Source: Winogradskyella vidalii (lineage in GTDB: Bacteria > Bacteroidota > Bacteroidia > Flavobacteriales > Flavobacteriaceae). Taken from it: 64,000 nucleotides of DNA. Below the pieces are notes generated by a model, which worked only from the letters and a program-made list of their open reading frames with translations, searched no databases and was not told where the DNA came from. The stretch covers positions 1,240,001-1,304,000 of the forward strand of contig NZ_JABFDG010000001.1 in NCBI RefSeq assembly GCF_013403955.1. The letters are read 5' to 3'. This document shows, piece by piece, positions 3,682 to 33,383 of the stretch (positions are counted from its first letter, which is position 1; each line of letters starts with the position of its first letter). The translations under genes and the position numbers were made by a program.

Positions 3682-3728
3682 CTAAAGTACTTTAGAATAC
3701 TAAAATTTTTATCCCTGAAACTAATGAT
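3682..3728 (-). promoter_or_regulatory. Palindrome promoter, site 1
   Basis: On the minus strand the 18-bp site ATCATTAGTTTCAGGGAT (3711-3728) is followed by exactly 21 bp and then TACTTTAG (3682-3689), a 7/8 match to the -7 box TAnnTTTG. It faces the SUKH gene at 3659. It is one of nine sites with the same layout. Confidence 0.75.
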
Positions 3729-3750
3729 TTTATAAAATGAAGGTATTGTT

Positions 3751-4167
3751 TTAAACCCTAATCTTACTTTTTAAAATGTCTTCTAATACAGGAAATTGTG
3801 TCGGTTTAATTTGACTAACTGGAAGTCTGAGTTTTTTTTCTTTTTCATTTGGGTTTTGATACGTGATAACCATAACCTTCCGCTCAACAGCATAAGATTT
3901 AAGGGCACTATAAGCGATCTCTTTTTTGCCTATAATTCCGGTTTGAAACACGAAGTGGTTTTCTGAAAATTTAAACACTTTAAGATTTTTGTTGAAGACA
4001 TATAGACTAAAAAACAGGATACAAAATGCTATTGGAACGACTATTTCTATTGATGGCGCTTGTAGAGTTATTAGGCTTAGTGCTAACATAAATAAAGCAA
4101 AATACAAGGGTTTGTTTTTTGCTGTAGAACTTAATTCAATTTCAGATATAGTGTCTGTTTTATTCAT
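3751..4167 (-). CDS. Small membrane protein with PH-like cytoplasmic domain
   Basis: This 138-residue protein has two adjacent membrane helices (about residues 20-37 and 41-58) and then a roughly 75-residue soluble domain. The alternating strands of that domain (VFKFSENHFVFQTG, KKEIAYSALKSYAV) resemble the bacterial PH-like domain of YdbT/YdbS-type membrane proteins. No catalytic residues are evident. It lies 47 bp downstream of the PurA-like gene on the same strand, so it is probably the last gene of the operon starting at 6565. The role is unknown; membrane anchoring of the neighbouring complex would be speculation. Confidence 0.7.
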   Translation of the reverse strand: MNKTDTISEIELSSTAKNKPLYFALFMLALSLITLQAPSIEIVVPIAFCILFFSLYVFNKNLKVFKFSENHFVFQTGIIGKKEIAYSALKSYAVERKVMVITYQNPNEKEKKLRLPVSQIKPTQFPVLEDILKSKIRV

Positions 4168-4214
4168 ACTTTATCATATATCTTCTTAGATATTTCTATT
4201 ATGGTTTTGTAAAA

Positions 4215-5348
4215 TCAATTTAGAAGTTTTGCTATACATTCTCGTTTAGGGCCGTAACTTCCATGAACAGATTTGAATGTTGTATCTAATTTTTGAAGTA
4301 AATTCTCGTAAGAAAAACGAGGTAATTGGTCGAGACAAGTCAATATCAAGTGTTTTTTGATGTTTAAATTTCGATGATGAATAGCATCGCAACTTAGTGC
4401 ATAATTTAATAATTCTGGATCTAAAGCTTGTATTCTAAACTCCCCTTGAAACTCGTTGGTTATATTCGCTTCATTTTCATTATTTTGAAGGGTTACCGTT
4501 TCTGTTTGAGACATTGGACCGTTGCCATGACGGGTTTGGTAACAGCGTGTCACGTAATAAATATCTATTTCTGCATCAATCCCTAAATGTGTTTTGATAA
4601 GCTGAATGGCATTTTTAGAAGTGGTGTAACTCCACGTGGTATGCGGATGAAAACCGTGTTGCGTATCGAGTAAAATTCCCTGGCTGCCTTCAAAAATAAA
4701 ATGTTTAAAAGTTGAAGCTAATTCTGAAAGTGACGCGATATTATAATTTTTTTGAATCCCTAAACAACTCTCTATATAATAAGCTTCGTTATAGTCTTTG
4801 AGTTCGTTTTTGTAATAGTCTTGTACCGATTTTGGTTGACTTTCTAACTTCTTATCGTAATAGTTTTTTATACTTTGTAAACGCTGTTTTAAAACCCATG
4901 GAAAGTGTAAGTCGTTAACATATAGATAAACTTCGGCTTTGTTTCTCGCGATGGTTGTTCCAAAACCCAAACCACAAGAGCCGTGATGTTGTTGTTTTTC
5001 AATCGCTCTATTAAAAGCAATATCGTAAAATGTGGTCACCATCGTTAACGGATGGAAATATAATTTGGGCTGATAGTTTTTTAAAAATTCCCCTTCGCCT
5101 AAAATAGCAGGAGGGAAGATGGTGGTGTGTTCAGAATAATAGGTTGGTACGCTTAATAAAGTCCCTGATCCAAAATTGCTAAACGTGTGTGTAAGTGCCT
5201 CTGTACTTACAGTATGCCCAATTTGATGACCACCCGAAAACCTAACGACAAGGCTTTCTTCAGGATGTTGAGATGCCAGAAAATCGGTTGTTAACCCTTT
5301 TCCAGCATCACCAAATCCTAAATCTATAACAAGACTACATTTTGGCAT
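4215..5348 (-). CDS. Adenylosuccinate-synthetase-like GTP-dependent enzyme (PurA/PurZ-like)
   Basis: The protein is homologous to PurA, which joins IMP and aspartate using GTP. Visible motifs are the GDAGKG loop with the catalytic-type Asp14, the SGGHQIGHT motif with His41, GSCGLGFG in place of the IMP/dimer loop GxTGxGIGP, EGSQGILLD followed by HG, TRHGNGP and a TCLDQL remnant of the guanine-binding TKLD motif. At 377 residues it is about 50 shorter than housekeeping PurA, mainly in the C-terminal third, and many consensus positions differ. It is therefore unlikely to be the cell's purine-pathway enzyme. It abuts the vWA gene (TAA then ATG, no gap), implying a coupled function. The substrate could be IMP, a deoxynucleotide or something else. 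Confidence 0.8.
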   Translation of the reverse strand: MPKCSLVIDLGFGDAGKGLTTDFLASQHPEESLVVRFSGGHQIGHTVSTEALTHTFSNFGSGTLLSVPTYYSEHTTIFPPAILGEGEFLKNYQPKLYFHPLTMVTTFYDIAFNRAIEKQQHHGSCGLGFGTTIARNKAEVYLYVNDLHFPWVLKQRLQSIKNYYDKKLESQPKSVQDYYKNELKDYNEAYYIESCLGIQKNYNIASLSELASTFKHFIFEGSQGILLDTQHGFHPHTTWSYTTSKNAIQLIKTHLGIDAEIDIYYVTRCYQTRHGNGPMSQTETVTLQNNENEANITNEFQGEFRIQALDPELLNYALSCDAIHHRNLNIKKHLILTCLDQLPRFSYENLLQKLDTTFKSVHGSYGPKRECIAKLLN

Positions 5349-6212
5349 TTATAGCATGTTTTCTACTTCTGTACTATCAGAAGCGGTGTTGGTATCTGCT
5401 GAAGCATTATAAGGCTTATGGTTTTCAATCACCACATTGGCAATACGTTTTGCAACGGTTTTAAAGTCTGGGACCTCTATGAAATTATCACCTAAAAGTG
5501 CTTTCCAATTGCCTTTACGACTTTCTTGTTTTGCCCATTCGTTATGCTCTAAATGCATATGAAATACATTATATTTTTCTTGAGCTTCTGCAATAATAGC
5601 TTCCGTAGTTATGGTTTCTGCTTCATCCACAGATGTATATCTTTTAATAATTTCAGCAGGAATCGTAGGGAAAACTGGCTCGTCACCAATTGTAAATAAA
5701 AAGCCTTTTTGTTGTCTTTTTTCCCAACAATCAATCGACGTATGACGCGCAGCAAACAAATGTGCTAAGTTATACCCTTCTTGATTGTTTCCGCCGCCAC
5801 CGCCTTCTAAATACACACGCGTTAACCAGCGGTCTAACAATTCTGCAGACGATTCAAATTGTCCTACTTGTAAAGGCGCATGATCATATATAAAATCGCC
5901 AATCCCTAAAAATAAGACTTGCGGATCTTCAATTCCGGCTTCTATTAACGAGCCAATAAGGTCTGGTAAGGCTTCTTTTACAATATGTTCTGGTACAAAT
6001 CCCATACTTCCGGTAACATCTAATGCTACAATTATAGATACCGTTTCAGGATGTTCTTCAGAATCTCTAGATTCTCTAACTATGGCTTTTGTAGGATCCA
6101 TTTCTGGATCTATTTGTGTGGATGTAAAAATCTCTTCTCTAGATTTATTACTGTATCCTTTCATTTTTCTTAATTTTGTGTAAGCATCATTACTAAATCG
6201 TCCTCCTCCCAT
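5349..6212 (-). CDS. von Willebrand factor A (MIDAS) domain protein
   Basis: This cytosolic 287-residue protein has a vWA domain from about residue 55. The MIDAS metal site is visible as DVTGS (Asp65-Ser69), with a Gly-rich loop LEGGGGGNNQEG and a later GDEP segment. The N-terminus (MGGGRFSNDAY) and the Arg/Lys-rich lead-in are typical of stand-alone bacterial vWA proteins. Such proteins commonly act with MoxR AAA+ ATPases in metal insertion, assembly or conflict systems. It sits 2 bp after the coiled-coil gene and directly abuts the PurA-like gene, so these three are probably stoichiometric partners. No ATPase is visible between them. Confidence 0.85.
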   Translation of the reverse strand: MGGGRFSNDAYTKLRKMKGYSNKSREEIFTSTQIDPEMDPTKAIVRESRDSEEHPETVSIIVALDVTGSMGFVPEHIVKEALPDLIGSLIEAGIEDPQVLFLGIGDFIYDHAPLQVGQFESSAELLDRWLTRVYLEGGGGGNNQEGYNLAHLFAARHTSIDCWEKRQQKGFLFTIGDEPVFPTIPAEIIKRYTSVDEAETITTEAIIAEAQEKYNVFHMHLEHNEWAKQESRKGNWKALLGDNFIEVPDFKTVAKRIANVVIENHKPYNASADTNTASDSTEVENML

Positions 6213-6580: not shown

Positions 6581-6627
6581 CAAAGTTATAAGGAGCTATT
6601 GTTTTTTTTATCCCTGATAACAGTGAT
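6581..6627 (-). promoter_or_regulatory. Palindrome promoter, site 2 (vWA operon)
   Basis: On the minus strand ATCACTGTTATCAGGGAT (6610-6627) lies exactly 21 bp from a perfect -7 box TAACTTTG (6581-6588). The leader before the ATG at 6565 is short, about 10 nt. It is back to back with site 3. Confidence 0.85.
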
Positions 6628-6659
6628 ATTGTTGCGTGGTTTCTTATTCTAAATAAAAA

Positions 6660-6706
6660 ATCACGGAATACAGCCATTTCAACTTTAAAAGGAGTCGTTA
6701 TCTTTG
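6660..6706 (+). promoter_or_regulatory. Palindrome promoter, site 3
   Basis: ATCACGGAATACAGCCAT (6660-6677), a 21-bp gap, then a perfect -7 box TATCTTTG (6699-6706). It drives the rightward gene whose ATG is at 6725. The palindrome centres of sites 2 and 3 are 50 bp apart. Confidence 0.85.
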
Positions 6707-6724
6707 AGATTCTTAAAAGACGTA

Positions 6725-7633
6725 ATGATGACGACAATACATTTATCTTCAACAGGTTTAAAAATTAATTCGGTGGCTATAGAATTTCCCGTTTCAATAG
6801 AAACTTTAAAAAAAGGTTTAGACGCAAACTACAGAAGTGTAAAACTAAAAAAGAACACTATTTTTACTTGGGACGATTTGGGAATTTTAGGCTACTCAAG
6901 TAATGGAGAAGATATCGATTCTCTAACGTTAGAGTTAGAACCTGATGCTTTCGATTTTTGTCCGAAATCCAAGTTTTCGGGAACGTTTTATTTTAATGAT
7001 GAAGAGATTATTACCTATTATAATACCCATAAATCGGAACGGGTAGAACTTTTTGAAGGTGACGATTGTGGTGCTTTGGTACAAAATACTATAAGTGCTT
7101 GGTTTGATGTTAATGATAACCGTATTAGTGCCATTGAAATAAGTACTTATGAAATTTATAACCGTTGGGCAGGAATTCCGGAAGATAAATACAGTATTAA
7201 ACCACTTGATGAGGAGGAAATAACCTTTGTAGATTTTGGATTTAAACTTTCTATTATAGAAGAGTTAATGTATGTAAAAGGCCTATTGCAACCGCAATTT
7301 GATATTCACGAATTTGCAAGATGGTATAAAGGTCGAGATATTAATATTGACGAAGAAGGCTATGAACCTATTGCAGAAGTAGAGCAATATTTTAAAGATT
7401 TGCCCATCCCGAAACGTTTAGCTTCAGAAATTACGGAGATTTATCAAGATGGTGGCAACGATATTTATATGAATTTATCACCCTTTTCAGGTGGTGCTGT
7501 AGCGTATTGGGATATACAATCTGCTGAAGATGCCAAGCAATTTCCTAATCTTAAAAAAGCAACTTTATGTTATGCTACAGATGGTGTTTATGATGAATTT
7601 GAACAACTAGGAATAGAGGCGGAATCGTTGTAG
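6725..7633 (+). CDS. Hypothetical two-domain protein (DUF6892-like C-terminus)
   Basis: This is a 302-residue soluble protein. The N-terminal part (about 1-150) is beta-rich (TTIHLSSTGLKINSVAIEFP, with a WDDLG motif). The C-terminal part (about 160-300, from FVDFGFKLSIIEEL to CYATDGVYDEFE) resembles a family I remember as DUF6892. Both family names are tentative. A TTG 21 bp upstream would overlap the -7 box, so the ATG at 6725 is chosen; an ATG follows directly at 6728. It is transcribed from palindrome site 3, divergent from the vWA operon. Function is unknown. Confidence 0.75.
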   Translation: MMTTIHLSSTGLKINSVAIEFPVSIETLKKGLDANYRSVKLKKNTIFTWDDLGILGYSSNGEDIDSLTLELEPDAFDFCPKSKFSGTFYFNDEEIITYYNTHKSERVELFEGDDCGALVQNTISAWFDVNDNRISAIEISTYEIYNRWAGIPEDKYSIKPLDEEEITFVDFGFKLSIIEELMYVKGLLQPQFDIHEFARWYKGRDINIDEEGYEPIAEVEQYFKDLPIPKRLASEITEIYQDGGNDIYMNLSPFSGGAVAYWDIQSAEDAKQFPNLKKATLCYATDGVYDEFEQLGIEAESL

Positions 7634-7777: not shown

Positions 7778-9652
7778 ATGCTTGTTACTTATTTTGGTTT
7801 TAAAAAAGATGCTCAATATCATACCTCTACCAAGTTTGTTATTGTCTTTTTATTAGCATTATTTACTTTTTCAAATTTAAATGCGCAAGACGATTACAAG
7901 TCCATAACAAGATTATTAGCAAAGTCAAAAGCTATAGAACAAAAGGATATAGATCGTTCTTTTCTTTACGCAAATCAAGCTGTTGAAATAGCAAAATCGA
8001 TAAAAAATGATACTTTATTATCAAAATCTCATTTGCAACAAAGTCGCTTGTATATGTTTAAAAAGGAATTTACGAAATCCGATTCCATACTTCAACATAT
8101 TCTATCTCAAAAATTGCCTGAATATATTAGAGGGTTAGCATTGCATAATCTAGGGACTATTCAATATTATAAACAAAATTTAAAAGAAGCGTTGACATTA
8201 TACTTAGAAGCTTCGGAAACGCTTGAAAAAACTAATAAAACAAATAAATTAGTAAGTATCTATTCTAATATTGGGGCGATTAATGCGACTCTAAAAAATT
8301 ATAAAAATGCTCAAATTTATTTTGAAAGAGCTCTAGCTTTAAGTGATTTTGATGATCATTTAAAGCTTCAGGTATTAGTTAATTTATCTAGTGTCTATTA
8401 TAACCAGAAACTTTTTAAAAAGTATACGGAAAGCATATTTGAAGCAGAAGCGTTTGCTTTAAAAACCAATTCCACTAAAATCCTTTCTACAATTTATACT
8501 AACCTATGTTTATACTACACGGCAGAAGGTGAAGATTATGATTTAGCAATAACTTATGGTCTAAAAGCGATTGATTTAAAACGAGAGTTAAATAGTGTAA
8601 ACACATTAAGTGGTGCCTACAATAATTTGGGGTCTGCTTATCTTGAAAAAAGGGAATATAGCCAAGCTATTCAATATCTTGATAGTGCTGCGATAGACGC
8701 CGAAACCATTTTAAAACCTTATATCTACAATGGTCTAAAAGAAGCCTATTTAGGCTTAAACGATTATGAAATTGCTTTGCGTTATGCTGATTTAAAAGAC
8801 AAAATAAAAGACTCTATAGCACGTAAACAACAAAAAGAAAATGTTGCAGAATTGACCGAAAAATATGAATCTGAAAAAAAAGCACAGCGTATAGATATTT
8901 TAGATTCGCAAAACAAAATACAAGCACTGACTATTAAACAACAAAACTACCTATTAATTACACTCGCTATTTTTGTTTTACTAATTAGTGTTTTAGGCTA
9001 TTTTGGGTTCAAAAACTATAAAATACAACAACAATTAGATAGCGTTTTGCTGCAGCAAAGGTTAAAGAAAACGCAATTAAATCCTCATTTTTTATTTAAT
9101 GCATTACAAAGTATTCAAAATTTCATTCATCAAAATGACAAAGAGAAATCAAGTACGTATCTCACGAGTTATTCAAAATTAATTAGGCTTGTTTTAGAAA
9201 AGTCGGATGAAGATTTCATTACTGTTGAAGATGATAAAATAGCTTTAGAATCCTATCTCAATTTACAATTGTTAAATTATAATAACACATTTACCTTTAA
9301 TATAAAAGTAGATGAATCTGTAGATGAGGATTTTGATTTGTTACCTACTCTTATAACACAACCTTTTGTAGAAAATGCAATACTACATGGTTTAAAAGAT
9401 AATAGTCGAGGTCATATTAATGTAGAATACTATAAAAAACAGTCCGTTTTATATGTTTCTATTACCGATAATGGTAAAGGATTTGAAACTAAAAAAGAAG
9501 ATTCTAAACGTTTGCACAAATCTATGAGTATGGCGATTATTAAGGAGCAATTACAAAACCTTAATAAAACATCAAAAGACTTTAAAGGCGCTATTACGAC
9601 GAACTCAACACCAAATGGAACAGAGGTGATTTTAAGTTTTTCAACACTTTAA
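7778..9652 (+). CDS. TPR sensor histidine kinase, LytS family
   Basis: This 624-residue protein begins with a hydrophobic signal or anchor (residues 19-36). Tetratricopeptide repeats follow (about 60-340) on the periplasmic side, then a coiled coil, one membrane helix (391-411) and a LytS-type kinase core. The phospho-acceptor is His437 in the motif LNPHFLFNALQ, and the ATPase N-box is FVENAILHGL with DNGKGF. The family has no separate dimerisation domain and normally phosphorylates a LytTR regulator, here encoded 18 bp downstream. No palindrome operator precedes it. The TPRs suggest sensing through a protein or peptide ligand, which is inference. Confidence 0.9.
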   Translation: MLVTYFGFKKDAQYHTSTKFVIVFLLALFTFSNLNAQDDYKSITRLLAKSKAIEQKDIDRSFLYANQAVEIAKSIKNDTLLSKSHLQQSRLYMFKKEFTKSDSILQHILSQKLPEYIRGLALHNLGTIQYYKQNLKEALTLYLEASETLEKTNKTNKLVSIYSNIGAINATLKNYKNAQIYFERALALSDFDDHLKLQVLVNLSSVYYNQKLFKKYTESIFEAEAFALKTNSTKILSTIYTNLCLYYTAEGEDYDLAITYGLKAIDLKRELNSVNTLSGAYNNLGSAYLEKREYSQAIQYLDSAAIDAETILKPYIYNGLKEAYLGLNDYEIALRYADLKDKIKDSIARKQQKENVAELTEKYESEKKAQRIDILDSQNKIQALTIKQQNYLLITLAIFVLLISVLGYFGFKNYKIQQQLDSVLLQQRLKKTQLNPHFLFNALQSIQNFIHQNDKEKSSTYLTSYSKLIRLVLEKSDEDFITVEDDKIALESYLNLQLLNYNNTFTFNIKVDESVDEDFDLLPTLITQPFVENAILHGLKDNSRGHINVEYYKKQSVLYVSITDNGKGFETKKEDSKRLHKSMSMAIIKEQLQNLNKTSKDFKGAITTNSTPNGTEVILSFSTL

Positions 9653-9658
9653 ATATAG

Positions 9659-9666
9659 TATCTTTG
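9659..9666 (+). promoter_or_regulatory. Putative -7 box directly upstream of the LytTR gene
   Basis: TATCTTTG matches TAnnTTTG perfectly and ends 4 bp before the ATG of the response regulator. If used, it would give a leaderless or near-leaderless transcript separate from the kinase. No -33 element or palindrome is obvious, so it may be chance. Confidence 0.35.
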
Positions 9667-9670
9667 TACT

Positions 9671-10423
9671 ATGATGCAGAATATATCATGTTTTATAGTA
9701 GAGGACGATCCGCAGGCATTGGCTTATGCAACTTCAATTTTAAAAAGCTATAAAAGCATAGATGTAATAGGAAGTGCTAATACTATTGAAGCAGCAGCAG
9801 ATTCAATAAAAAAGCAAAACCCCGATTTTATAGTTTTAGATGTATTCTTACTTGATGGGAATGCTTTTGAATTTCTTAAACTATTTGAGAGCATTGATTT
9901 TAAAATTATTTTTACAACCTCATTTGCAAAATTTGCTATTGATGCCTTTAAATTTAGTGCCATAGATTATTTGCTAAAACCTTATCAGGAAAAGGAGTTA
10001 ATGACGGCCATAGATAAGGTTATTAATGATATCACTAAAACAAACCACCAATCGCAACTTAATACGTTGTTACATAATGTATCGAATAATGAGCCTTCAA
10101 AAAAAATAGTATTAAAGAATACAGAGGCTATTCATGTTGTGGATATTAAAGATATTTTATATGCAAAATCAGATAATAATTATACATCCTTTGTTTTAGA
10201 AAATGATAAAAGCATACTTGTTTCTAAACCTCTTAAATCGTTTGATGAAAAATTAAAAAGTCATCACTTTTTTCGTGTGCATCAAAGTTATCTGATTAAC
10301 CTAAATTTTATTTCTTCATTTAATAAACGCAGTGAAGAAGTTGTTTTATGTAACACGTATCATATTCCTGTTTCTCAAAGCCGAAAGAAAAGTTTACTCA
10401 ATTATATTGATGAATTAGTATAA
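9671..10423 (+). CDS. LytTR-family response regulator
   Basis: This 250-residue protein has an N-terminal receiver domain with acidic pocket EDD (residues 11-13), phospho-acceptor Asp57 in FIVLD and the conserved Lys in LLKPY. A C-terminal LytTR DNA-binding domain covers about residues 140-245 (FFRVHQSYLINL, PVSQSRKK). Two ATGs are adjacent (9671 and 9674). It is paired with the TPR-LytS kinase just upstream. LytTR proteins usually bind paired 9-bp repeats. Targets are unknown, though the surrounding island is the obvious place to look. Confidence 0.9.
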   Translation: MMQNISCFIVEDDPQALAYATSILKSYKSIDVIGSANTIEAAADSIKKQNPDFIVLDVFLLDGNAFEFLKLFESIDFKIIFTTSFAKFAIDAFKFSAIDYLLKPYQEKELMTAIDKVINDITKTNHQSQLNTLLHNVSNNEPSKKIVLKNTEAIHVVDIKDILYAKSDNNYTSFVLENDKSILVSKPLKSFDEKLKSHHFFRVHQSYLINLNFISSFNKRSEEVVLCNTYHIPVSQSRKKSLLNYIDELV

Positions 10424-10544
10424 TTGAATTCTTTTTCAAACACTTCAATTTCTAAATATATACGGTCAAATTCTCATGACCTAAAATAGTTACCTTTTAT
10501 AGGGTTAAATTCGTTTTTTTAAAACAATTTAAGCTTAATCTAGG

Positions 10545-11252
10545 ATGAAAATAAATAAATTAATACCAGCATTTGCTTTAATTACACTTTGTGTTTTATT
10601 CCAATCCTGTTATGTTGTAAAAAAATCAGATGAGTTTTACGAAGTAGAAACTTCAGACTTAAATACATTATATCTTATTGATATTTCTGGAAGTATGGAA
10701 GGCATCGATGAAGGGTCTGTAGAAGATCAGGTTAGAAGAGAAGTTGGTAACACAGCTGGTAAAGAGGTCAGTAAAGCTATTGGTGGAAAAATAGGGAATA
10801 TTCTAGGGAAACAGGTTACTAAAGAGGCAACTAAATTAGGTGCTGTAAAGCGCAATTTAATACCAGCCATTAAAGGATTACCAGATGGTAAAAAGTTTCT
10901 CGTGTTTGCTTTCAATAATGATGTCACTATGCAAGCTACAGAGTTTAGGGTAGCCGATAATGTGTCTAGAACATCATCTAATGTATTTGTAAAAAACTTA
11001 GCAGCAGAAGGCGGTACAGATACACTAGAAGGTTTGCTTGAAGCTATAGCAACAAAAGACGTTCAAGAGATTGTGTTAATGAGCGACGGTTTACCAAATG
11101 GCGGGCCAAGTAATGTTTTAGAAGAAGTTAGAAAAGCAAATACCAACAACATTATTATTCATACCATTGCTTTTGGAGATGATGCTGACTTAGATTTTAT
11201 GAGAACTCTGGCTCAAGAAAATAACGGAACTTTTGTTACGTCTAAAATGTAA
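10545..11252 (+). CDS. vWA-domain lipoprotein
   Basis: This 235-residue protein has a signal peptide with lipobox LFQSC (Cys22), so it is predicted to be membrane-anchored. A vWA domain follows with a complete MIDAS: DISGS (Asp46-Ser50), GGTDT and MSDGLPNGGP. A Gly/Lys-rich insertion (about residues 65-100, with GKEVSKAIGGK and GNILGKQV) lies between the first MIDAS motif and the rest of the fold and is unusual. It is a single gene closed by a strong terminator at 11338-11369. Being extracytoplasmic, it is unlikely to be the direct partner of the cytosolic vWA protein at 5.3 kb. Confidence 0.85.
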   Translation: MKINKLIPAFALITLCVLFQSCYVVKKSDEFYEVETSDLNTLYLIDISGSMEGIDEGSVEDQVRREVGNTAGKEVSKAIGGKIGNILGKQVTKEATKLGAVKRNLIPAIKGLPDGKKFLVFAFNNDVTMQATEFRVADNVSRTSSNVFVKNLAAEGGTDTLEGLLEAIATKDVQEIVLMSDGLPNGGPSNVLEEVRKANTNNIIIHTIAFGDDADLDFMRTLAQENNGTFVTSKM

Positions 11253-11412: not shown

Positions 11413-11459
11413 ATCACTAATTTCAGGGAGGTATTAAAGCCGCTTAAACTCTAGCTTTG
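11413..11459 (+). promoter_or_regulatory. Palindrome promoter, site 4
   Basis: ATCACTAATTTCAGGGAG (11413-11430), 21 bp, then a perfect -7 box TAGCTTTG (11452-11459). The ATG of the next gene is at 11488. TCAGTATTT lies 15 bp upstream of the palindrome start, as at site 5. Confidence 0.85.
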
Positions 11460-11487: not shown

Positions 11488-12135
11488 ATGGGATTAACAA
11501 TTTTAACAGGTGTACTAGCAGATTTTAAAGCGAATGAACCTGAAGGTTACCAAGCATATAAAGTGATTTTTGAAAACATAAACACCATATTAGCAAAAAA
11601 CGGTGTAGACGCTCATAAAGAACCAGATGAAATGGAAAAAGAGCCTTTGCAGTTTGGCGGATTTCCGTATAGTTTTTTACATCATTTAAGGCGTTTTGCA
11701 GCCCACGTTTGGGACAATAAAGATAATGAAAATTGGGACTGGACACCAACACCATTTCCTACAGAAGATGAGCCTGGAGCAGATTCTATTTTAGAAGACC
11801 ATTATTCTTATATGTCTAGTCATCTTTTAACACATTCAGATTCAGAAGGTTTTTATATTCCTTTAGAATTACCAGAAGTGCTTTTTGATAATGATAAAGC
11901 ACCAGTACCAGGAGCAATGATTGGCTCATCTTACACGCTTTTACAAGAATTAAAAAGTCTTACGACACCCTTAGGTATTGGCTTAGATGAACAGAATAAC
12001 CTTACTAATGTAGATGAATTAAATAAAATTATATCTAATGAAGGTGATTTTTGGATAGAAATATTGGTTTGCGTGACCCTCATAGATGCTGCAAAATTTA
12101 GTATTGAAAATAAAACAGCAATGCTGTTTAATTAA
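11488..12135 (+). CDS. Hypothetical protein of the island (215 aa)
   Basis: This soluble acidic protein begins MGLTILTGVLADF, and I cannot place it in a named family. Conserved-looking features are the FGGFPYSFLHHLRRFAAH segment near residues 53-70, an Asp/Glu/Pro-rich WTPTPFPTEDEPGAD stretch and a PGAMIGSSYTLLQEL helix. The look is that of a small alpha/beta protein from immunity or conflict loci (inference). It starts 28 bp after the -7 box of palindrome site 4 and precedes the propeller-like gene by 9 bp, so the two are co-transcribed. Confidence 0.75.
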   Translation: MGLTILTGVLADFKANEPEGYQAYKVIFENINTILAKNGVDAHKEPDEMEKEPLQFGGFPYSFLHHLRRFAAHVWDNKDNENWDWTPTPFPTEDEPGADSILEDHYSYMSSHLLTHSDSEGFYIPLELPEVLFDNDKAPVPGAMIGSSYTLLQELKSLTTPLGIGLDEQNNLTNVDELNKIISNEGDFWIEILVCVTLIDAAKFSIENKTAMLFN

Positions 12136-12144
12136 AAAAACACA

Positions 12145-13401
12145 ATGAAAGAAACTGATAAAAATAGAGAAGACTTAAAGCAAGAGTGGAACACTAAAGG
12201 CAGTGCATATGCTTTGGCTGTGAATGAAATGGTTGCGTTTGGTGATGCTAATGGATGGGAAAATTGGAAAGGGAAGGAGCCTAAAGATGAAAGGGGCCAT
12301 TTAGCTAATGCTGTATTTCAGTTGTTAAAAGAAGCAAATAAAAACAGTACCGTTTCTCAATTTAGAGCAGATTTTCCGCCAGCGCATACGCCTTTAATTC
12401 AGCTGATGAATGGTAAGAGTCAAAGCATTATGCAGTTGAGTTTTATAGACGAGCAGAAAATTGTTTTTGTAACAGGAACCCCATATGAGCATAGACAAGC
12501 TTACATCTTGGATAATAATAAAACTTTAGAACTTGATGCTTCTATTGCAGCTGTAGGAAAATCTAAACAAAATAATGTGTTTGCAATTGCTGCAAATAAT
12601 ATTATTAGTACTACTCAAGGTTGGGAAGGTGATATTATAGCAACGTTCCGTTTAGACGAAGCAAAGGATATTGGTATTACAGAATTAATCCCTTTTAATG
12701 ACGGACTTAAAGTGCTATTGGTATCATCAGATGGAATTTACATTATATCTAACGATAATGAAAACATGATTCATCCCTTACCAGACCCAGAAGATGACGA
12801 GTGGGAACCTTATATGGATATGGAAAATGCAACGCTTTCTAATGACAATAAATACATCGTGGTTGGCGATCAATGTTATGATCATAGAGTTTTAGATAAT
12901 AATGGTAAAGAAATTACAGAAATAGGTACACAATCGGCTTATCCAGATTTTTGTATGTTTTCTAAAGATGATAAACAGTTGATCACTAATTCATGTCACT
13001 TTTATAATGGAATTACTATTGGTGTCGCAACGTCCGATTTTGAACGTATCAATATTCCAGCTTATGAAGGCGGTGAAGACTGCATCACTATTGACGATGG
13101 TATGCGGGTGTATTGTGGTGTTTCAACTTCAGAATTCTACATTTTAGGAGACGCTTTTGGTTATATAAAAGCGGTTGATGCTAAAGGAAATTGTATTTGG
13201 AAACACTTTTTAGGTTCTACAATTACAGGACTAACAATTTCTGATGATGAAAAGACCTTGTGGATTGGTGCGGCTTCAGGAATGCTTCACAAGCTGCAAT
13301 TAAATCAGGGAGTTAGAGATAATCATACCATTGGTACAGCTAATCATTTTGAAGAATTCCGTTTAATATTATGGAAAGAAGAACCGGTTAGAGTTTGGTA
13401 A
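12145..13401 (+). CDS. Beta-propeller (WD40-like) protein
   Basis: This 418-residue cytosolic protein has a helical N-terminal region of about 85 residues. Repeating strand-rich units follow, with motifs such as QKIVFVTGTPY, NNVFAIAANNIIST, KYIVVGDQCYDHR and KTLWIGAASGMLHKL. The 40-50 residue period suggests a seven-bladed propeller. There is no catalytic motif, and propellers of this type usually act as interaction platforms. It is the second and last gene of the operon from palindrome site 4, ended by the terminator at 13426-13460. Confidence 0.75.
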   Translation: MKETDKNREDLKQEWNTKGSAYALAVNEMVAFGDANGWENWKGKEPKDERGHLANAVFQLLKEANKNSTVSQFRADFPPAHTPLIQLMNGKSQSIMQLSFIDEQKIVFVTGTPYEHRQAYILDNNKTLELDASIAAVGKSKQNNVFAIAANNIISTTQGWEGDIIATFRLDEAKDIGITELIPFNDGLKVLLVSSDGIYIISNDNENMIHPLPDPEDDEWEPYMDMENATLSNDNKYIVVGDQCYDHRVLDNNGKEITEIGTQSAYPDFCMFSKDDKQLITNSCHFYNGITIGVATSDFERINIPAYEGGEDCITIDDGMRVYCGVSTSEFYILGDAFGYIKAVDAKGNCIWKHFLGSTITGLTISDDEKTLWIGAASGMLHKLQLNQGVRDNHTIGTANHFEEFRLILWKEEPVRVW

Positions 13402-13505: not shown

Positions 13506-13552
13506 ATCCCTATTTTCAGGGATAAGAGGCGGTGTTATAAGATCTAGTTTTG
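13506..13552 (+). promoter_or_regulatory. Palindrome promoter, site 5
   Basis: ATCCCTATTTTCAGGGAT (13506-13523) has perfectly paired 6-bp arms. It is followed by 21 bp and then a perfect -7 box TAGTTTTG (13545-13552). The ATG at 13577 follows. Confidence 0.85.
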
Positions 13553-13576
13553 CGGTATATAATTAATACATTTCAA

Positions 13577-14737
13577 ATGAAAAATAATATACTCTATTTC
13601 GTTCTATTAACACTAATGTTGGCTTCTTGTAGTAAGAAAAGTTATACGGCATTAATTGAGAAAGATGCTTACGCAACATCTCATACTACAAAATATCATT
13701 TGCCTAAAAATGTTCTGAAATTTGAAATTATTTATACCCTAAATGAGCCTAGAGTAAAAAAAGGTAGTTTTGACGAAGCCTTACTAACAAGCTCCACAAA
13801 AGTGACTATTGAAGATCCTATTGTGATTACAAAAATTTTGGTTGCTGATCCATCCAATACCTTTGAGATAAAAGGGAAACAGTTGTCCGATCGTTTTTTT
13901 GTAAATAGAGGTGAGGATGTATCTAATCCTATTTTAGAGGATACCTTAAATGTGTCATTTGGAACGTTAGAGGCATCAAAAAAATCATCGTATTCGTCAT
14001 TTACAGATTCTAGTATAGAAGCCGAAGCTTTTAGGTCTATAGAAGAAATAAAGAATAATTTAGATAAAATAAAAACTAAAAAGGAGGCCGATATGGCCTT
14101 AAAACTGATAACACTTTTTAAAAGTCAGTTTAAGACATTAAATGAAGACTTTCAACCTTATATTAAAAAGCATAAAGTGAAATATACGATTGTAATTGAT
14201 CCTTCTGAATTATATTCTAAAGATGGCAACTGGTCTAATATAGAGGGGAATACATTCTATCACACTATTTTTCCAGAACATATTTTTAAAGGTAAAGGAA
14301 TTTTAAGTGATTTAATAACAGTTAAAGTTACCAGGCCTAATGTGCATCTCCTACAAGAGGTCTTGAGCTCAGAACCTATTGAAGGGATTGTTTATAGAAC
14401 TTCTTCAGCGTCAAATATAGAAATCTTATTAAATGATTATTCCTTGTTTAACGATGCTATGACCTTAGCACAATTGGGACAATTTAAAACAATAGCGGTT
14501 AAAGATTTAGAAAAACATAAGTCGCTAAGCCAGCCAGTTGTATTGTTTAAGGCGGAAAATCCTGAGAACCAAACCGAAACTCCTTCTATTTTTAAAGAAG
14601 AGGTAGAGCAGTTAGATTTTGATTCTAGTGACACAATTCAAGACTCTCAAGAAGCCATACTAGAGGAGCGTAAAGAGAAATTAAAAAATATCGATTTAAT
14701 TATAAAAAGCCTCGAAAAACGTATCACTGAATTCTAA
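13577..14737 (+). CDS. Lipoprotein, DUF4831-like
   Basis: This 386-residue protein starts MKNNILYF and has lipobox LASC (Cys18), so it is exported and lipid-anchored. The YHLPKNVLKFEIIY segment and the central region with IVIDPSELY recall DUF4831 proteins of Bacteroidota; the match is tentative. The C-terminus is a charged coiled coil (last 35 residues). An in-frame TTG at 13550 overlaps the -7 box and is rejected as a start. It is a monocistronic unit under palindrome site 5, which makes it the one clearly exported member of that regulon. Confidence 0.75.
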   Translation: MKNNILYFVLLTLMLASCSKKSYTALIEKDAYATSHTTKYHLPKNVLKFEIIYTLNEPRVKKGSFDEALLTSSTKVTIEDPIVITKILVADPSNTFEIKGKQLSDRFFVNRGEDVSNPILEDTLNVSFGTLEASKKSSYSSFTDSSIEAEAFRSIEEIKNNLDKIKTKKEADMALKLITLFKSQFKTLNEDFQPYIKKHKVKYTIVIDPSELYSKDGNWSNIEGNTFYHTIFPEHIFKGKGILSDLITVKVTRPNVHLLQEVLSSEPIEGIVYRTSSASNIEILLNDYSLFNDAMTLAQLGQFKTIAVKDLEKHKSLSQPVVLFKAENPENQTETPSIFKEEVEQLDFDSSDTIQDSQEAILEERKEKLKNIDLIIKSLEKRITEF

Positions 14738-14755: not shown

Positions 14756-14802
14756 TTCACTGAATACCGTTAGATAATAAATGACGTAAAGTAGCATCTT
14801 TG
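14756..14802 (+). promoter_or_regulatory. Palindrome promoter, site 6 (11-gene operon)
   Basis: TTCACTGAATACCGTTAG (14756-14773), exactly 21 bp, then CATCTTTG (14795-14802), a 7/8 match to the -7 box. This is the weakest palindrome of the nine, but its spacing is the same. Confidence 0.7.
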
Positions 14803-14849: not shown

Positions 14850-15275
14850 ATGAAAATAACAAAGGATACGCTCAAAAAAGATTCACGAAGTGAAGATTGT
14901 TATAGAACAACCTTTTTATCTGATCAACATAAAATTGATATCAGTCTAAATATTGAAGACATTAGTTTAGAGGAAATGATTGCTTTAGGAAATTCCTTTT
15001 TAGAAGATTTTGAAGATAAAAAGAAAAAAGCCACAGATGAAATCGTAAGCGCTTTTTACGAAAATTACAATGAAAACTGGGCTGATGAAGACAATGGATA
15101 TCCAGAGTTAAGCCAGCCAGAATTCAGACAAAAATTAACAATAACAGCTATTCATTTTTATGCCAAAGATTTGATAGACGTGATTTATAATGAAGACGGC
15201 ATGTTTGGGAATCATTATTTAATAGCTCAATCTTACGATGGTAAAACTTTTGACGATAGTACCATGTTTGGATAA
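14850..15275 (+). CDS. Hypothetical protein (DUF2262/DUF2004/DUF6985-like)
   Basis: This is a 141-residue acidic soluble protein. The C-terminal pattern FYAKDLIDVIYNEDGMFGNH followed by SYDGKTFDDSTMFG resembles small DUF2004, DUF2262 or DUF6985 proteins often found among immunity-type genes; I cannot decide between them. It is the first gene of the 11-gene operon (14850-21978), 47 bp from the -7 box, with 11 bp to the DUF1963 gene. No catalytic residues are visible. Confidence 0.65.
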   Translation: MKITKDTLKKDSRSEDCYRTTFLSDQHKIDISLNIEDISLEEMIALGNSFLEDFEDKKKKATDEIVSAFYENYNENWADEDNGYPELSQPEFRQKLTITAIHFYAKDLIDVIYNEDGMFGNHYLIAQSYDGKTFDDSTMFG

Positions 15276-15286
15276 AAAACACACAA

Positions 15287-15994
15287 ATGACTTTAGAAGA
15301 ACTTAAAAATAAAATATCTAAACCGGTCACTAAATTTATAACAGGCGGCTTTAGACCAAAAAACACCATTGAAGAAAGTTGGATTGGTAAAGTCTTTGCT
15401 TATAATGAAGACGAAGACATTCCGTTAGATAAAAACGGAGATCAAATGTTTCCGTTGGCGCAATTTTACCTGCCTAATTTGCCTTACGTTCATCCAAGTC
15501 TTAAGGATACGAAACTCATCACCGTTTTTGTTTCTGCAGAATGGCCAGAATGCTTTGAAGACATGGGAGACCATTGGCTCATTAGAGAATACGACATTCT
15601 AGACAGCATTAAAATTAAAAATTTAGAAACCCCTTATTCGGTTGTAAAACCCTTTCCACTACAAGCAGAATTAGACGAAAATGATTTTCCCTTATGGGAT
15701 GGTGGCGGTTTATCTCTAGAAGATACAGACGAAATTTTAAAGCTAGAAAACGAAGGTATTATTGAAGATTATTTTGATATTATAGATCATATCTATGACC
15801 ATAAAATAGGTGGTTATCCTTCTTTTTGTCAATCCGGAATAGGTGACGCAGAGGGCTTTGGAAAAGGCTTTCAGTTTGTGTTTCAAATTGTATCAGATTA
15901 TAAGGCAAATTTCAACGTGATAGATGGTGGGAGCTTAATGTTCGCCAAAAATAACGACACCAACCAGTGGAGTTTGTATTACGACTTTTATTAA
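15287..15994 (+). CDS. DUF1963 (YwqG-like) protein
   Basis: This is a 235-residue cytosolic protein. The DUF1963 signature is clear in the second half: KIGGYPSFCQSG, then FQFVFQIVSDYK and the closing DGGSLMFAKNN with W and a terminal FY. DUF1963 proteins are small beta-rich modules of unknown biochemical role, frequent in bacterial immunity and stress loci. It is the second gene of the operon, between the small DUF gene and the DUF2314-ankyrin gene. Confidence 0.8.
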   Translation: MTLEELKNKISKPVTKFITGGFRPKNTIEESWIGKVFAYNEDEDIPLDKNGDQMFPLAQFYLPNLPYVHPSLKDTKLITVFVSAEWPECFEDMGDHWLIREYDILDSIKIKNLETPYSVVKPFPLQAELDENDFPLWDGGGLSLEDTDEILKLENEGIIEDYFDIIDHIYDHKIGGYPSFCQSGIGDAEGFGKGFQFVFQIVSDYKANFNVIDGGSLMFAKNNDTNQWSLYYDFY

Positions 15995-16025
15995 ATCACA
16001 ATAATTAAACTTAACATAATAAACA

Positions 16026-16781: not shown

Positions 16782-16802
16782 TGTAACGTATCTAGTTTTA
16801 AA

Positions 16803-17216
16803 ATGAAAACAACATTAACATACATTTTATTTGGGGTTTTGTCGATTTTAGTACTTTCTTGGGGGGTAAATCATGAAGAAGATAAAAGCAAGGATTTAGT
16901 TTTTAATAAAAAAGTTATTGATGGGGACATTATTTTTCGCTCTGTAACTACTGAAAATACAGCGTTAAACAACTTTAATGAATTTGGGATAGTCGAAAAA
17001 TATTTAGATAAAATGTATGTTTGGGATAACCAGAACACCATGAGAATAAGTTTTAAAGACTGGGTAAGGAAAGGAAATAATGGGCACGTCAAAGTTTATA
17101 GTATTAAATCTTCAGATTTTAATATCAATACGTTAAAGCTACAAAATGGAACTTATGATCATGTAATGAATTCTGATGTATTAGAATTTATAACTGAAAA
17201 TAAATTAGAGAAATAA
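16803..17216 (+). CDS. Hypothetical anchored protein (137 aa)
   Basis: A 137-residue protein with one hydrophobic N-terminal segment (residues 4-22), either signal or anchor, and no lipobox Cys. The exported part is a small beta-rich domain with no recognised family. It is the only clearly exported product of the 11-gene operon, 21 bp after the DUF2314 gene and 15 bp before the SUKH gene. Function is unknown. Confidence 0.65.
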   Translation: MKTTLTYILFGVLSILVLSWGVNHEEDKSKDLVFNKKVIDGDIIFRSVTTENTALNNFNEFGIVEKYLDKMYVWDNQNTMRISFKDWVRKGNNGHVKVYSIKSSDFNINTLKLQNGTYDHVMNSDVLEFITENKLEK

Positions 17217-17231
17217 TAATCAAATTTTAAA

Positions 17232-17837: not shown

Positions 17838-17838
17838 A

Positions 17839-20189: not shown

Positions 20190-20206
20190 TCTGAAAGCAT
20201 TATTGT

Positions 20207-20992: not shown

Positions 20993-21014
20993 TAACAAAA
21001 CTATAAATGAATTT

Positions 21015-21524
21015 ATGATACTCGCTTTTGACACTTATTATTACGACGGAAAAGCCAAAACCATAGCGGTAAGTTTTAGCGATTGGGAAGACGACGAACC
21101 AACAAAAATTTACACCGATATTATTGAAGGCGTAGCACCCTACGAACCAGGGGCTTTTTACAAACGCGAATTACCGTGTATTTTAAGTCTACTAAAACAA
21201 GTGAATCTAGAAGACGTTGACTTAATTATCGTTGATGGTTATGTGATTCTAGAAGAAAAACATTTAGGCTTAGGTGGCTATTTGTACCAAGCTTTAGAGC
21301 ATAAAATTCCGGTTGTTGGAATTGCTAAATCTGAGTTTGTATCTAAAACTTCTGTATTTAAGGAAGTCTGTCGTGGCGAAAGTAAAAAACCATTGTATGT
21401 AACTGCTATTGGTACAGATAGAGATGAGGTTTGTAACGCCATAGAACGTATGCACGGAAACTACAGAATGCCAACATTACTACAGATAGTAGATACTAAA
21501 ACAAAAGAAAATACGAAGAACTAA
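21015..21524 (+). CDS. Endonuclease V-like protein
   Basis: This 169-residue protein carries the endonuclease V core: Asp6 in AFDTYY, YEPGAFYKRELP (Glu52), IIVDG (Asp74), PVVGIAKS, YVTAIG and the closing MHGNYRMPTLLQIVD. Endonuclease V cleaves the second phosphodiester 3' of inosine in DNA or RNA. This version lacks the usual N-terminal 30-40 residues of the ~210-residue family, so it may be a specialised paralogue, but the three metal-binding acids are present. It sits in the same operon as two 2OG oxygenases and under the same operator as a PurA-like enzyme. Confidence 0.85.
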   Translation: MILAFDTYYYDGKAKTIAVSFSDWEDDEPTKIYTDIIEGVAPYEPGAFYKRELPCILSLLKQVNLEDVDLIIVDGYVILEEKHLGLGGYLYQALEHKIPVVGIAKSEFVSKTSVFKEVCRGESKKPLYVTAIGTDRDEVCNAIERMHGNYRMPTLLQIVDTKTKENTKN

Positions 21525-21543
21525 TACATTAAAAAGTACAACT

Positions 21544-21978
21544 ATGAATAAAGATTTAATCGTAACATCTGTAGATGAGGCAAAACTGATGTTTAGAAAA
21601 AATTATAGAGATTTTATTGCAGAAAAACCGAGAACCGTTACTATAGAAGATGAGGATTTTAAATTATTTAGTTTTGATAAGATGATTTCCTCGACAAACA
21701 TCGATGGGATGGAGGTAAGTGAAGTTAGAGCTTTAAAAGCGTATGTTAATACTTTAAAAAACATTTTAGGACCAACAGTCTACGATCAAAAAGGAAAAGA
21801 GTGGTCTATGTTAATGTTATCTGCGAGCATCACTATTGGTAAAAATTCAGAAGGTGATTTGTTATTTGTTGATAGACACGATGGTAAAACACTTTATATT
21901 TTTCGTCACGATGATGGAAGTTTATTTAAAACAAAAATGACGTTATACAAGCTCATTAAAGCTACTTCTGCAGAATAA
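21544..21978 (+). CDS. SUKH-like small protein
   Basis: This is a 144-residue protein. The C-terminal strands (GDLLFVDRHDGKTLYIFRHDDG followed in part by a helix) have the pattern that ends SUKH-type domains, but the N-terminal helices are divergent. The call is therefore tentative. It is the last gene of the 11-gene operon, 19 bp after the endonuclease V gene; no hairpin terminator is obvious immediately after it. Confidence 0.6.
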   Translation: MNKDLIVTSVDEAKLMFRKNYRDFIAEKPRTVTIEDEDFKLFSFDKMISSTNIDGMEVSEVRALKAYVNTLKNILGPTVYDQKGKEWSMLMLSASITIGKNSEGDLLFVDRHDGKTLYIFRHDDGSLFKTKMTLYKLIKATSAE

Positions 21979-26598: not shown

Positions 26599-26645
26599 CA
26601 AATTTATGCTAGTCGATTACGTTTTTTATCACGGTATTCAGCGAT
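26599..26645 (-). promoter_or_regulatory. Palindrome promoter, site 7 (LRR-A operon)
   Basis: On the minus strand ATCGCTGAATACCGTGAT (26628-26645), 21 bp, then a perfect -7 box TAAATTTG (26599-26606). Confidence 0.85.
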
Positions 26646-27655: not shown

Positions 27656-28069
27656 CTACCAATAGGTTCCTACTAGAAACGTCATTCTTATAAATGCAAT
27701 GACACTTTCTGATGTTAATTCTAAAGGTGTCTTTAAATCCGTGATTTCATCGTCGTCTACAAACACCACGAATAATCCGTCTTTAAAGGCTAACAATACA
27801 TTGTCTATGGCGTGTTGATGATTAGCAAGTGTTGTATTAGTAATCTCTCCAAAATCGACTTTACCACTTTGGGCTTGTTCTTGGATTTCGGCAGGACTTA
27901 AAAATCCAACGACGTTTACTTCGGTGCGTTTTTTATTATAGGCATCGACTTGATGTTTAACACAGCCAATTAATAAATCTTTTAGATTTTTAGGGTTTTC
28001 ATTTAGAGTAAAAGGGATTTCTTTTACTTTTTTCTTCCCGAGTCGTTTTAGTTGTAACGTGAGTTCCAT
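27656..28069 (-). CDS. Small conserved protein of MolR loci (137 aa)
   Basis: A 137-residue soluble protein. It begins MELTLQLKRLGKKKVKEIPF, has the segment SGKVDFGEI in the middle, and ends with AFKDGLFVVFVDDDEI and FIRMTFLVGTYW. From memory, proteins with this look accompany DUF4132/MolR genes, but I have no firm family name. It is the gene after MolR on the same strand; the 116-bp gap holds a hairpin repeat. Confidence 0.7.
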   Translation of the reverse strand: MELTLQLKRLGKKKVKEIPFTLNENPKNLKDLLIGCVKHQVDAYNKKRTEVNVVGFLSPAEIQEQAQSGKVDFGEITNTTLANHQHAIDNVLLAFKDGLFVVFVDDDEITDLKTPLELTSESVIAFIRMTFLVGTYW

Positions 28070-33186: not shown

Positions 33187-33258
33187 ATCTCTTAAATATT
33201 TTTAACTATGGTCATTAACAATGATTTGTCTTTTTCTATACAAACCGAATTACTGATG

Positions 33259-33305
33259 GCAAGGTAAAAGAAATCTGTTTGTTTAAACTCACGGTATTTA
33301 GTGAT
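33259..33305 (-). promoter_or_regulatory. Palindrome promoter, site 8 (MolR)
   Basis: On the minus strand ATCACTAAATACCGTGAG (33288-33305), 21 bp, then TACCTTGC (33259-33266). The TA is at the expected place but the TTTG half of the -7 box is weak. It faces the MolR gene and is back to back with site 9 (centres 49 bp apart). Confidence 0.7.
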
Positions 33306-33336
33306 TTTTATAAAGGGCGTTTTTTACGTTTTAAAT

Positions 33337-33383
33337 ATCACAGAATACAGTGACAAAACACAGCTGCTTTTAAAATAGGTTTG
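33337..33383 (+). promoter_or_regulatory. Palindrome promoter, site 9 (LRR-B/LRR-C)
   Basis: ATCACAGAATACAGTGAC (33337-33354), 21 bp, then a perfect -7 box TAGGTTTG (33376-33383). The ATG of LRR-B is at 33406. Confidence 0.85.

Follow-up and report, generated by a model that had tools for sequence, protein, structure and literature searches.

Our analysis indicates that a genomic island of Winogradskyella vidalii is likely to be controlled by its own two-component system, which would activate at least 11 island promoters through a palindrome centred at -42.5, with positive feedback. The conserved island spans about 47 kb, between roughly -8.4 kb and 38.5 kb in the coordinates of the window (the whole 64-kb stretch of DNA analysed; negative positions lie to its left). 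It carries its own pair, a TPR-containing HisKA_3 kinase (655 aa) and a NarL/FixJ-type LuxR-HTH regulator (211 aa). In the proposed mechanism, the phosphorylated regulator would bind as a dimer to the palindrome ATCACTG-AATA-CAGTGAT and recruit polymerase to the -7 box, and the promoters, including that of the kinase/regulator operon, would switch on together. The initial annotation had described a nine-promoter regulon; all nine sites were confirmed, but the set extends to at least 11 sites and is essentially that of one genomic island.

The nine 18-mers of the window lie at the coordinates and on the strands first given for them. A recount also agrees that T2, C3, C12, G14 and A17 are invariant (9/9) and that A1, C5 and T10 are shared by 8/9. 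Exactly 21 bp past the end of each site there is a -7 box, as had been claimed: six are perfect TAnnTTTG boxes, two match at 5/6 (3711 and 14756) and one at 4/6 (33288). Site 1 (ATCATTAGTTTCAGGGAT, 3711..3728, minus strand; box TACTTTAG, 3682..3689, minus, 5/6) is the predicted promoter of an operon encoding, in order, a SUKH protein, an 834-aa protein, a DUF1266 protein, a TPR protein, the TPR histidine kinase and the NarL response regulator. Its orthologous promoters have a TAYYTTAG box in 9/9 cases. Site 2 (ATCACTGTTATCAGGGAT, 6610..6627, minus; perfect box TAACTTTG, 6581..6588, minus) probably drives 6583-4215 (122 aa, 287 aa and a PurA-like protein of 377 aa), an operon extent suggested by gene order. 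The 287-aa protein has, as judged by eye, a vWA-like DVTGS motif. Site 3 (ATCACGGAATACAGCCAT, 6660..6677, plus; perfect box TATCTTTG, 6699..6706, plus) is the predicted promoter of a DUF7738-DUF6892 gene (6704-7633). Site 4 (ATCACTAATTTCAGGGAG, 11413..11430, plus; perfect box TAGCTTTG, 11452..11459, plus) probably drives 11488-13401, which encodes proteins of 215 aa and 418 aa. Neither had a match in a Pfam search; the latter was called a propeller in the initial annotation. Site 5 (ATCCCTATTTTCAGGGAT, 13506..13523, plus; perfect box TAGTTTTG, 13545..13552, plus) is the predicted promoter of a 395-aa gene (13550-14737).

Site 6 (TTCACTGAATACCGTTAG, 14756..14773, plus; box CATCTTTG, 14795..14802, plus, 5/6) probably drives the run 14850-21978, again to an extent suggested by gene order, with DUF2262, DUF1963, DUF2314-Ank, SUKH, SUFU, 2OG oxygenase, endonuclease V and other genes. 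Site 7 (ATCGCTGAATACCGTGAT, 26628..26645, minus; perfect box TAAATTTG, 26599..26606, minus) probably drives 26579-22950 (126 aa, an LRR protein of 791 aa, and 256 aa). Site 8 (ATCACTAAATACCGTGAG, 33288..33305, minus; box TACCTTGC, 33259..33266, minus) is the predicted promoter of a MolR-like DUF5724-DUF4132-DUF7737 gene (33186-28186) and probably also of the 137-aa gene behind it. Site 9 (ATCACAGAATACAGTGAC, 33337..33354, plus; perfect box TAGGTTTG, 33376..33383, plus) is the predicted promoter of the LRR genes 33406-38523. The listed ORF starts TTG at 6704, 13550 and 6583 are mechanical calls that fall inside boxes, so the true starts must be downstream.

The box of site 8 had been taken for a degenerate, weak TAnnTTTG. 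It is instead of the TAnnTTGY type and is conserved as TAYCTTGC in 14/14 islands with a site scoring at least 14 at the MolR promoter. Start-site mapping in Flavobacterium psychrophilum places the box at -12 to -5 (PMC9723704). With start positions taken from that species, the palindrome would cover -51 to -34, with its centre at -42.5. The data thus favour the earlier proposal of a class II dimeric activator near -42, given this centre and a 21-bp register in 111/131 sites of related genomes (see below); activation rather than repression is suggested by the position of the site.

Several comparisons show how far this arrangement exceeds chance. With a symmetric matrix built on the palindrome only, the nine sites rank 1-9 in the 64-kb window, and the tenth match (577) is intragenic and has no box. 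When each site is left out of the matrix in turn, every one of the nine is still at rank 10 or better. From the background box rate, the probability of at least 8/9 boxes matching at 5/6 or better at the 21-bp spacing, on either strand, is about 1e-12. A 47-position model made from the nine sites places them on top in the 4.33-Mb genome (E 4e-5 to 0.006; next match 0.045). Two extra sites that had no part in the training, located some 6.6 and 8.4 kb beyond the left end of the window, both have a 5/6 box at exactly 21 bp and bring the number of sites in this genome to at least 11. Shorter or stricter models were less informative: an 18-mer-only model (R1), too short to be useful, gave four matches with E 1.3-8.7, all at window sites, and the nine rows obtained with the strict pattern ATCACN7AGTGAT fell at seven places, all outside the island (reversed control, 2), whose sites are too degenerate to fit this pattern.

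The same register is found in other Flavobacteriaceae. A matrix scan of related genomes, as the initial annotation had proposed, yielded 131 further sites in the island stretches of 15 genomes. This count comes from a matrix trained on the nine window sites only; it leaves out those training sites and all sites scoring below 14, including one of this genome's two extra sites (13.7). A box of at least 5/6 stands at 21 bp in 111/131 sites, and none of the other spacings between 5 and 40 has more than 9; perfect boxes number 65 at spacing 21 and at most 2 elsewhere. In the non-redundant set, 37/46 sites have such a box at 21 bp. Island stretches shuffled within 100-bp blocks contained a mean of 4.05 sites, 0.15 with a box, and 1.26 Mb around distant regulators (of unmatched base composition) contained 10 sites, one with a box. 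That the pattern is a chance product of AT-rich DNA, or consists of copies of a duplicated promoter cassette, is close to negligible in probability. Orthologous promoters are not independent and raw counts overstate the number of events, which speaks for this explanation, but shuffled and other DNA yield almost no sites, and site and box are kept together in 15 genomes. Cassette duplication was rejected since the spacer that separates site and box carries less than 0.3 bit at most of its positions, so the promoters are not recent copies of a single cassette. The two aligned sets of 66 and 54 sequences comprise only sites whose boxes match at 4/6 or better and at 5/6 or better, respectively.

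The protein acting at these sites is most likely the NarL/LuxR-type response regulator encoded, with its TPR histidine kinase, 4.8 kb left of the window. The kinase gene (TPR + HisKA_3; -4825..-2858, G000:C11:1235175-1237142, minus) and the regulator gene (-5466..-4831, G000:C11:1234534-1235169, minus) end the gene run that begins at site 3711. The window part of this putative operon (73..3659, minus) comprises the SUKH gene 2616-3659 and the 834-aa gene 73-2577; the last four genes are located entirely or for the most part beyond the window's left end, as far as -5466. The regulator has an N-terminal Response_reg domain (2.1e-27) and a C-terminal GerE (LuxR HTH) domain (5e-16, residues 150-204), and matches the VraR, NarL and RcsB structures over its full length. 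The gene directly upstream matches HisKA_3 (3.3e-8) and HATPase_c (5.2e-13). For regulators of the NarL/FixJ type, a short palindromic site is expected for the dimer. In G411, which has a different gene order, a site with a perfect box precedes the kinase gene. To our knowledge, no operator of this kind has been published. A literature search of open-access scope, outside which most subscription papers fall, found nothing describing this operator or island.

Regulator and sites are also inherited together. Among 68 genomes of the genus, eight show 7-12 model matches each, against 0-1 in the remaining 60; the same 8/68 carry a regulator ortholog of at least 91% identity, the best elsewhere being 44% (Fisher p 1.4e-10). 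In the family sample (n=397), the regulator occurs at 80-94% in six genomes of other genera, all of which have sites in the surrounding stretch by matrix scan (3 to 10 at a score of at least 14). The family-wide model search, with 15 candidates scored per genome, gave 2, 1, 1 and 0 matches in the regulator-bearing genomes G167, G323, G395 and G302; G360 gave 5. The island of G360 has seven sites, yet the kinase-regulator pair is absent from its usual place. A paralog of 40% identity in this genome has a site at the promoter of its own gene, and a different pair, kinase-regulator-like as judged by eye, adjoins the island (2357380-2359940), so that in G360 the sites may be served by another protein. 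From co-occurrence alone, the regulator cannot be told apart from the rest of the island, in which many proteins have no recognised domain.

The palindrome itself recurs at the operons of paralogous regulators. Among 44 loci with homologous regulators (33-49% identity), selected from the homolog hits and not independent since many are close relatives, it lies upstream of the regulator operon in 25, beating at least 199/200 shuffles in a test in which the box played no part in scoring. A box of at least 5/6 stands at 21 bp in 17 of those 25. Anywhere in the 44 loci, a site scoring at least 14 occurs in 32 and a site with a box at 21 bp in 19; boxes number 21 at spacing 21 and at most 4 at other spacings. 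The other 19/44 failed the shuffle test, partly since the operon as computed extended beyond the kinase gene. Of 80 loci from a named-genome search, 32 were scanned for operon promoters (28 regulators at 33-40%), and only the orthologs L210 and L212 have a strong site where the computed operon begins; the L280 operon start was marginal (score 6.3, perfect box, shuffle P 0.05).

An alternative is that a chromosomal paralogous TPR-kinase/NarL regulator is the main or joint regulator, the island pair being dispensable or acting on fewer promoters. We consider this unlikely. This genome has such a pair, about 41% identical (C11:1151273-1153819), with the palindrome TTCACGGAAAACCGTGAG upstream of its operon and TACTATTG at 21 bp from it, and the palindrome upstream of paralog operons in the 25/44 loci is very similar. 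G360 combines island, sites and paralog without the island pair. In addition, MolR homologs in 5/7 genomes without the island (leaving out G051, with a MolR homolog fragment) have a site scoring at least 12 no more than 600 bp upstream of the gene or operon, four of these five with a box of at least 5/6 at 21 bp. Against a paralog, the next best homolog in G014, G323 and G395, all three with island and sites, reaches no more than 37, 27 and 33%, respectively; genus genomes such as G108, G109, G112, G118 and G155-G157 have 40-44% paralogs but no site cluster; and the island regulator, at 90-95%, is among the most conserved island proteins.

Further candidates belong to the island or its surroundings. 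The LytTR response regulator 9671-10423, with its TPR-LytS kinase (7778-9652), is the sole response regulator in the portion of the window that contains the sites, and its position is downstream of site 6660. It is nonetheless a very improbable binder: of the seven other genus genomes with a site cluster, just G102 and G121 have an ortholog of at least 70%, so that it is present in 3/8 and not wherever sites are, and in G036, where kinase, regulator and vWA gene are present at 66-70%, the 40 kb scanned contain no site with a 21-bp box. Distribution and G036 together led us to reject it as the general regulator. The second LytTR pair (38690-40512) was also rejected; it lies right of the conserved island, and the stretches from seven other genomes contain no homolog of its kinase and, for its regulator, a match to the other LytTR alone (28%). 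There is also a small chance that the sites are bound by some island protein not recognised as DNA-binding, possibly a repressor that overlaps the promoter. For several conserved island proteins neither Pfam nor NCBIfam gave a match, and a site at -51 to -34 could also block polymerase, but the palindrome is found again in front of paralogous NarL operons where the island is absent, and the fixed register to the -7 box suits polymerase contact.

Since the sites most likely belong to the sensor-regulator pair, one switch would control the whole island. The island's genes are of a type known from inter-bacterial conflict. For 10 island proteins, NCBIfam gave no match and PADLOC a single candidate-family hit, on the SUKH gene 2616-3659. 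We tentatively suggest, as a possibility short of an even chance, that a horizontally mobile island with its own two-component switch shares its DNA-site language with the host's resident paralogous system, so that either could command the same promoters; that the MolR-like DUF5724/DUF4132 gene, through its TAnnTTGY box, adds a second sigma-factor condition; and that the program is a signal-inducible conflict or polyimmunity response. The work provides a well-supported predicted operator and promoter register for a clade of Flavobacteriaceae NarL-type response regulators, and a candidate regulator for MolR/DUF4132-type genes, on whose regulation in Bacteroidota a literature search with these domain names found no paper. 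The pattern is strong enough for promoter annotation from sequence, and the timing of expression of such islands becomes directly testable.

Similar to NarL, VraR and RcsB, the regulator combines receiver and GerE domains over its full length and has a HisKA_3 partner kinase next door. It differs from them in its candidate operator sequence, the 21-bp register to a Bacteroidota -7 box, the TPR-rich sensor and predicted targets that lie essentially within one island. In class II activation, for example by CRP at -41.5, the dimer site is likewise just upstream of the core promoter at a fixed spacing to the -10/-7 box; here, the centre is predicted at -42.5, relative to the TAnnTTTG box of the Bacteroidota primary sigma factor. 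Most island promoters fit the TAnnTTTG classes SM1-3 of F. psychrophilum and the MolR promoter fits SM5 (TAnnTTGY), although the string "palindrom" is absent from the main text of that study (PMC9723704), which is not known to describe a comparable upstream operator. Polyimmunity loci have been described in PMC3482391, the text of which does not name DUF1963. Like these loci, the island has co-directional SUKH, SUFU and DUF2314 (Imm34)-ankyrin genes, with LRR genes near; these putative immunity genes share the run 14850-21978 with other genes interspersed. Unlike the polyimmunity loci of that description, they are part of a much larger unit, an island that also contains MolR-like, PurA-like and further genes and has its own two-component system.

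Our analysis has shown that all nine 18-bp palindromes reported in the initial annotation are present (starts at 3711, 6610, 6660, 11413, 13506, 14756, 26628, 33288 and 33337), and that T2, C3, C12, G14 and A17, read in the direction of transcription, are invariant in all nine. The fixed 21-bp gap between the end of the site and the promoter -7 box (TAnnTTTG, scored on its six fixed letters) also holds throughout, with six perfect boxes, two at 5/6 and one at 4/6. When the window was scanned with a symmetric, palindrome-only matrix that excluded the box, the nine sites took ranks 1-9, and each site omitted from a leave-one-out matrix still ranked 10 or better. The tenth-ranked palindrome-like match (577-594) lies within an 834-aa gene and has no box. 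When the nine sites were made into a 47-position model, they were again its best matches across the 4.33-Mb genome (E 4e-5 to 0.006, against 0.045 for the next match). The palindromes of the divergent promoter pairs 6610-6677 and 33288-33354 are 50 and 49 bp apart, respectively; this distance is near 50 bp in most relatives and 73-79 bp in a few.

Left of the window are two extra sites (contig C11, 1233423 and 1231629), and in both a 5/6 box follows after exactly 21 bp. A second model drew on 54 non-redundant sites from 15 genomes, with W. vidalii contributing ten. With it, ten of the eleven island sites occupied the genome's top ten places (E 7e-6 to 0.018), which suggests that the predicted regulon is essentially one island, plus a few weak candidates elsewhere in the genome. 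One match outside the island, C33:316276 (E 0.027), outranks the eleventh island site (E 0.068).

The island is a gene block from about -8.4 kb (left of the window) to 38.5 kb that is common to the eight site-bearing genomes of the genus; model matches number 7-12 in these eight of 68 genomes and 0 or 1 in the remaining 60. Most block genes occur in all eight and some are variable, such as the SUFU gene at 17839-18495, present among the other seven only in G105 and G162. Genes at 38690-44192, which adjoin the block on the right, were without an ortholog in the stretches retrieved from those seven genomes. A matrix from the window's nine sites was then run over island stretches of 15 genomes: the eight from the genus, six from other genera, and G360. 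This yielded 131 further sites at a score of at least 14; simple ORF calling places 125 of them between genes, and 111 have a box of at least 5/6 at 21 bp. Perfect boxes numbered 65 at spacing 21 versus at most 2 at any other spacing. Shuffled DNA had been proposed for comparison in the initial annotation; island stretches shuffled in 100-bp blocks contained on average 4.05 sites, 0.15 with a box. In 1.26 Mb around distant regulators, whose composition was not matched to the island stretches, 10 sites were found, 1 with a box. With related copies removed, 37 of 46 sites kept the box at 21 bp, and other spacings reached at most 4. Since most spacer positions between site and box carry little information, the spacing is, on this comparative evidence, a maintained register and not a copied cassette.

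Start sites mapped in F. psychrophilum place the box at -12 to -5, as described in PMC9723704, and the palindrome would therefore span -51 to -34. The resulting predicted centre of -42.5 supports the earlier proposal of a class II dimeric activator. Absence of a -33 element alone is not telling, because none was identifiable in F. johnsoniae (cited in PMC7366714). The MolR promoter (site 33288, minus strand) has the box TAYCTTGC at 33259-33266, as TACCTTGC or TATCTTGC, in 14/14 islands. This fits the TAnnTTGY (SM5) class, which PMC9723704 describes as thought to belong to an alternative sigma factor, rather than a degenerate TAnnTTTG. Promoter-specific variants are also kept at the SUKH operon (TAYYTTAG, 9/9) and at the -8344 gene (CAnnTTTG, 9/9). 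It is possible that sigma requirements differ among promoters of one regulon.

Which protein recognizes the site? Just left of the window, all eight genus islands encode a TPR/HisKA_3 kinase of 655 aa together with a Response_reg-GerE regulator of 211 aa; the regulator matches VraR, NarL and RcsB structures along its length. The eight site-bearing genomes, and no others among the 68, have regulator orthologs with at least 91% identity, and the best match elsewhere is 44%. Among 397 family genomes, six additional ones have the regulator at 80-94%, with 3 to 10 sites in the stretches around it. Relatives that carry a species name include Flavobacterium frigidarium (94%), Leeuwenhoekiella aestuarii (89%) and Mesonia hippocampi (82%). 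A genome-wide model search of the 397 with strict filters found any match in 27, five or more in G000 (W. vidalii), G014, G411 and G360, and just 0-2 each in four of the six additional regulator-bearing genomes (G302, G323, G167 and G395). We predict with good confidence that this NarL-type protein is the regulator of the sites. A LytTR regulator inside the island was considered as the binder and rejected; an ortholog of at least 70% was present in only 2/7 of the other site-cluster genus genomes, and it occurs in G036 without boxed sites in 40 kb. It belongs to a block of TPR-LytS kinase, LytTR regulator and vWA gene (7778-11252) found in only 3/8 genus islands; the trio is also in G036, with no match to any further island gene in 40 kb. 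A second LytTR regulator lies in the window, right of the island.

The minus-strand run from site 3711 comprises the SUKH gene, the 834-aa gene, a DUF1266 gene, a TPR gene, the kinase and the regulator, with no more than about 40 bp between neighbouring genes. In G411, where gene order is different, a site with TACATTTG precedes the kinase gene. If the regulator activates, it would act on its own operon's promoter, giving positive feedback.

Paralogous regulators (33-49% identical) were analyzed at 44 loci, many from close relatives and thus not 44 independent events, by scanning upstream of the computed operon with the window matrix. The best palindrome beat at least 199 of 200 shuffles at 25 loci, 17 of which have a box of at least 5/6 at 21 bp, even though scoring ignored the box. 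At several of the 19 failing loci the computed operon extended beyond the kinase gene. When any position in the 44 loci was allowed, a site of at least 14 was present in 32 and one with a box at 21 bp in 19; box counts peak at that spacing (21 versus at most 4 elsewhere). These paralogs appear to tie the regulator family to the palindrome. A second palindrome (ATCCCTGAAAACAGGGTA or similar), with no box at 21 bp, often lies directly behind the regulator gene in paralogous operons, among them L335 (G000:C11, position 1154043). Regulators of distant organisms mostly lack the site; among 32 loci, a strong site stood at the computed operon start in orthologs L210 and L212, a marginal one in L280 (33%), and none in orthologs L209, whose computed start overran the true promoter, and L211.

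G360 is a counter-case: it has the island and seven sites, but the kinase-regulator pair is absent from its usual place, where the flanking genes are about 150 bp apart. The promoter of a 40% paralog in this genome carries both a palindrome and a perfect box, and a different kinase-regulator-like pair, judged by eye, adjoins the island (2357380-2359940). Conversely, besides the island regulator, no homolog exceeds 37% in G014, 27% in G323 or 33% in G395. The simplest reading would be that regulators of this NarL clade have a common operator and that every island genome has at least one clade member. In genomes without this island, 5/7 full-length MolR-like homologs have a site (score at least 12) no more than 600 bp upstream of the gene or operon, four with a box of at least 5/6 at 21 bp; none was found within that distance in G050 and G194. 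In 7/7 genomes, these MolR-like genes (L431-L448) are accompanied by a homolog of the 137-aa gene 27656-28069.

With regard to gene content, co-directional SUKH, SUFU, DUF2314-ankyrin, DUF1963, 2OG-oxygenase and endonuclease V-like genes occupy 14850-21978. The gene at 4215-5348 encodes a divergent adenylosuccinate-synthetase-like protein (79-85% identity in seven other genus islands), and its neighbour a protein bearing a vWA-like motif. Near the island's left end, a small gene (L069:17405-17797) matches TssD, the Hcp of type VI secretion (8e-8). No Pfam match was obtained for 5349-6212 (vWA) and 12145-13401 (propeller), which are labelled by eye or from the initial annotation. MolR-like, PurA-like and Hcp/TssD-like genes stand alongside immunity-type genes, and from family names we infer that the island may be a signal-induced conflict program. 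The predicted regulon and operator are new, and the kind of regulator is already known. The island's SUKH, SUFU, DUF2314 (Imm34)-ankyrin and LRR genes are similar to genes in the polyimmunity loci described in PMC3482391, where the first three are known members.
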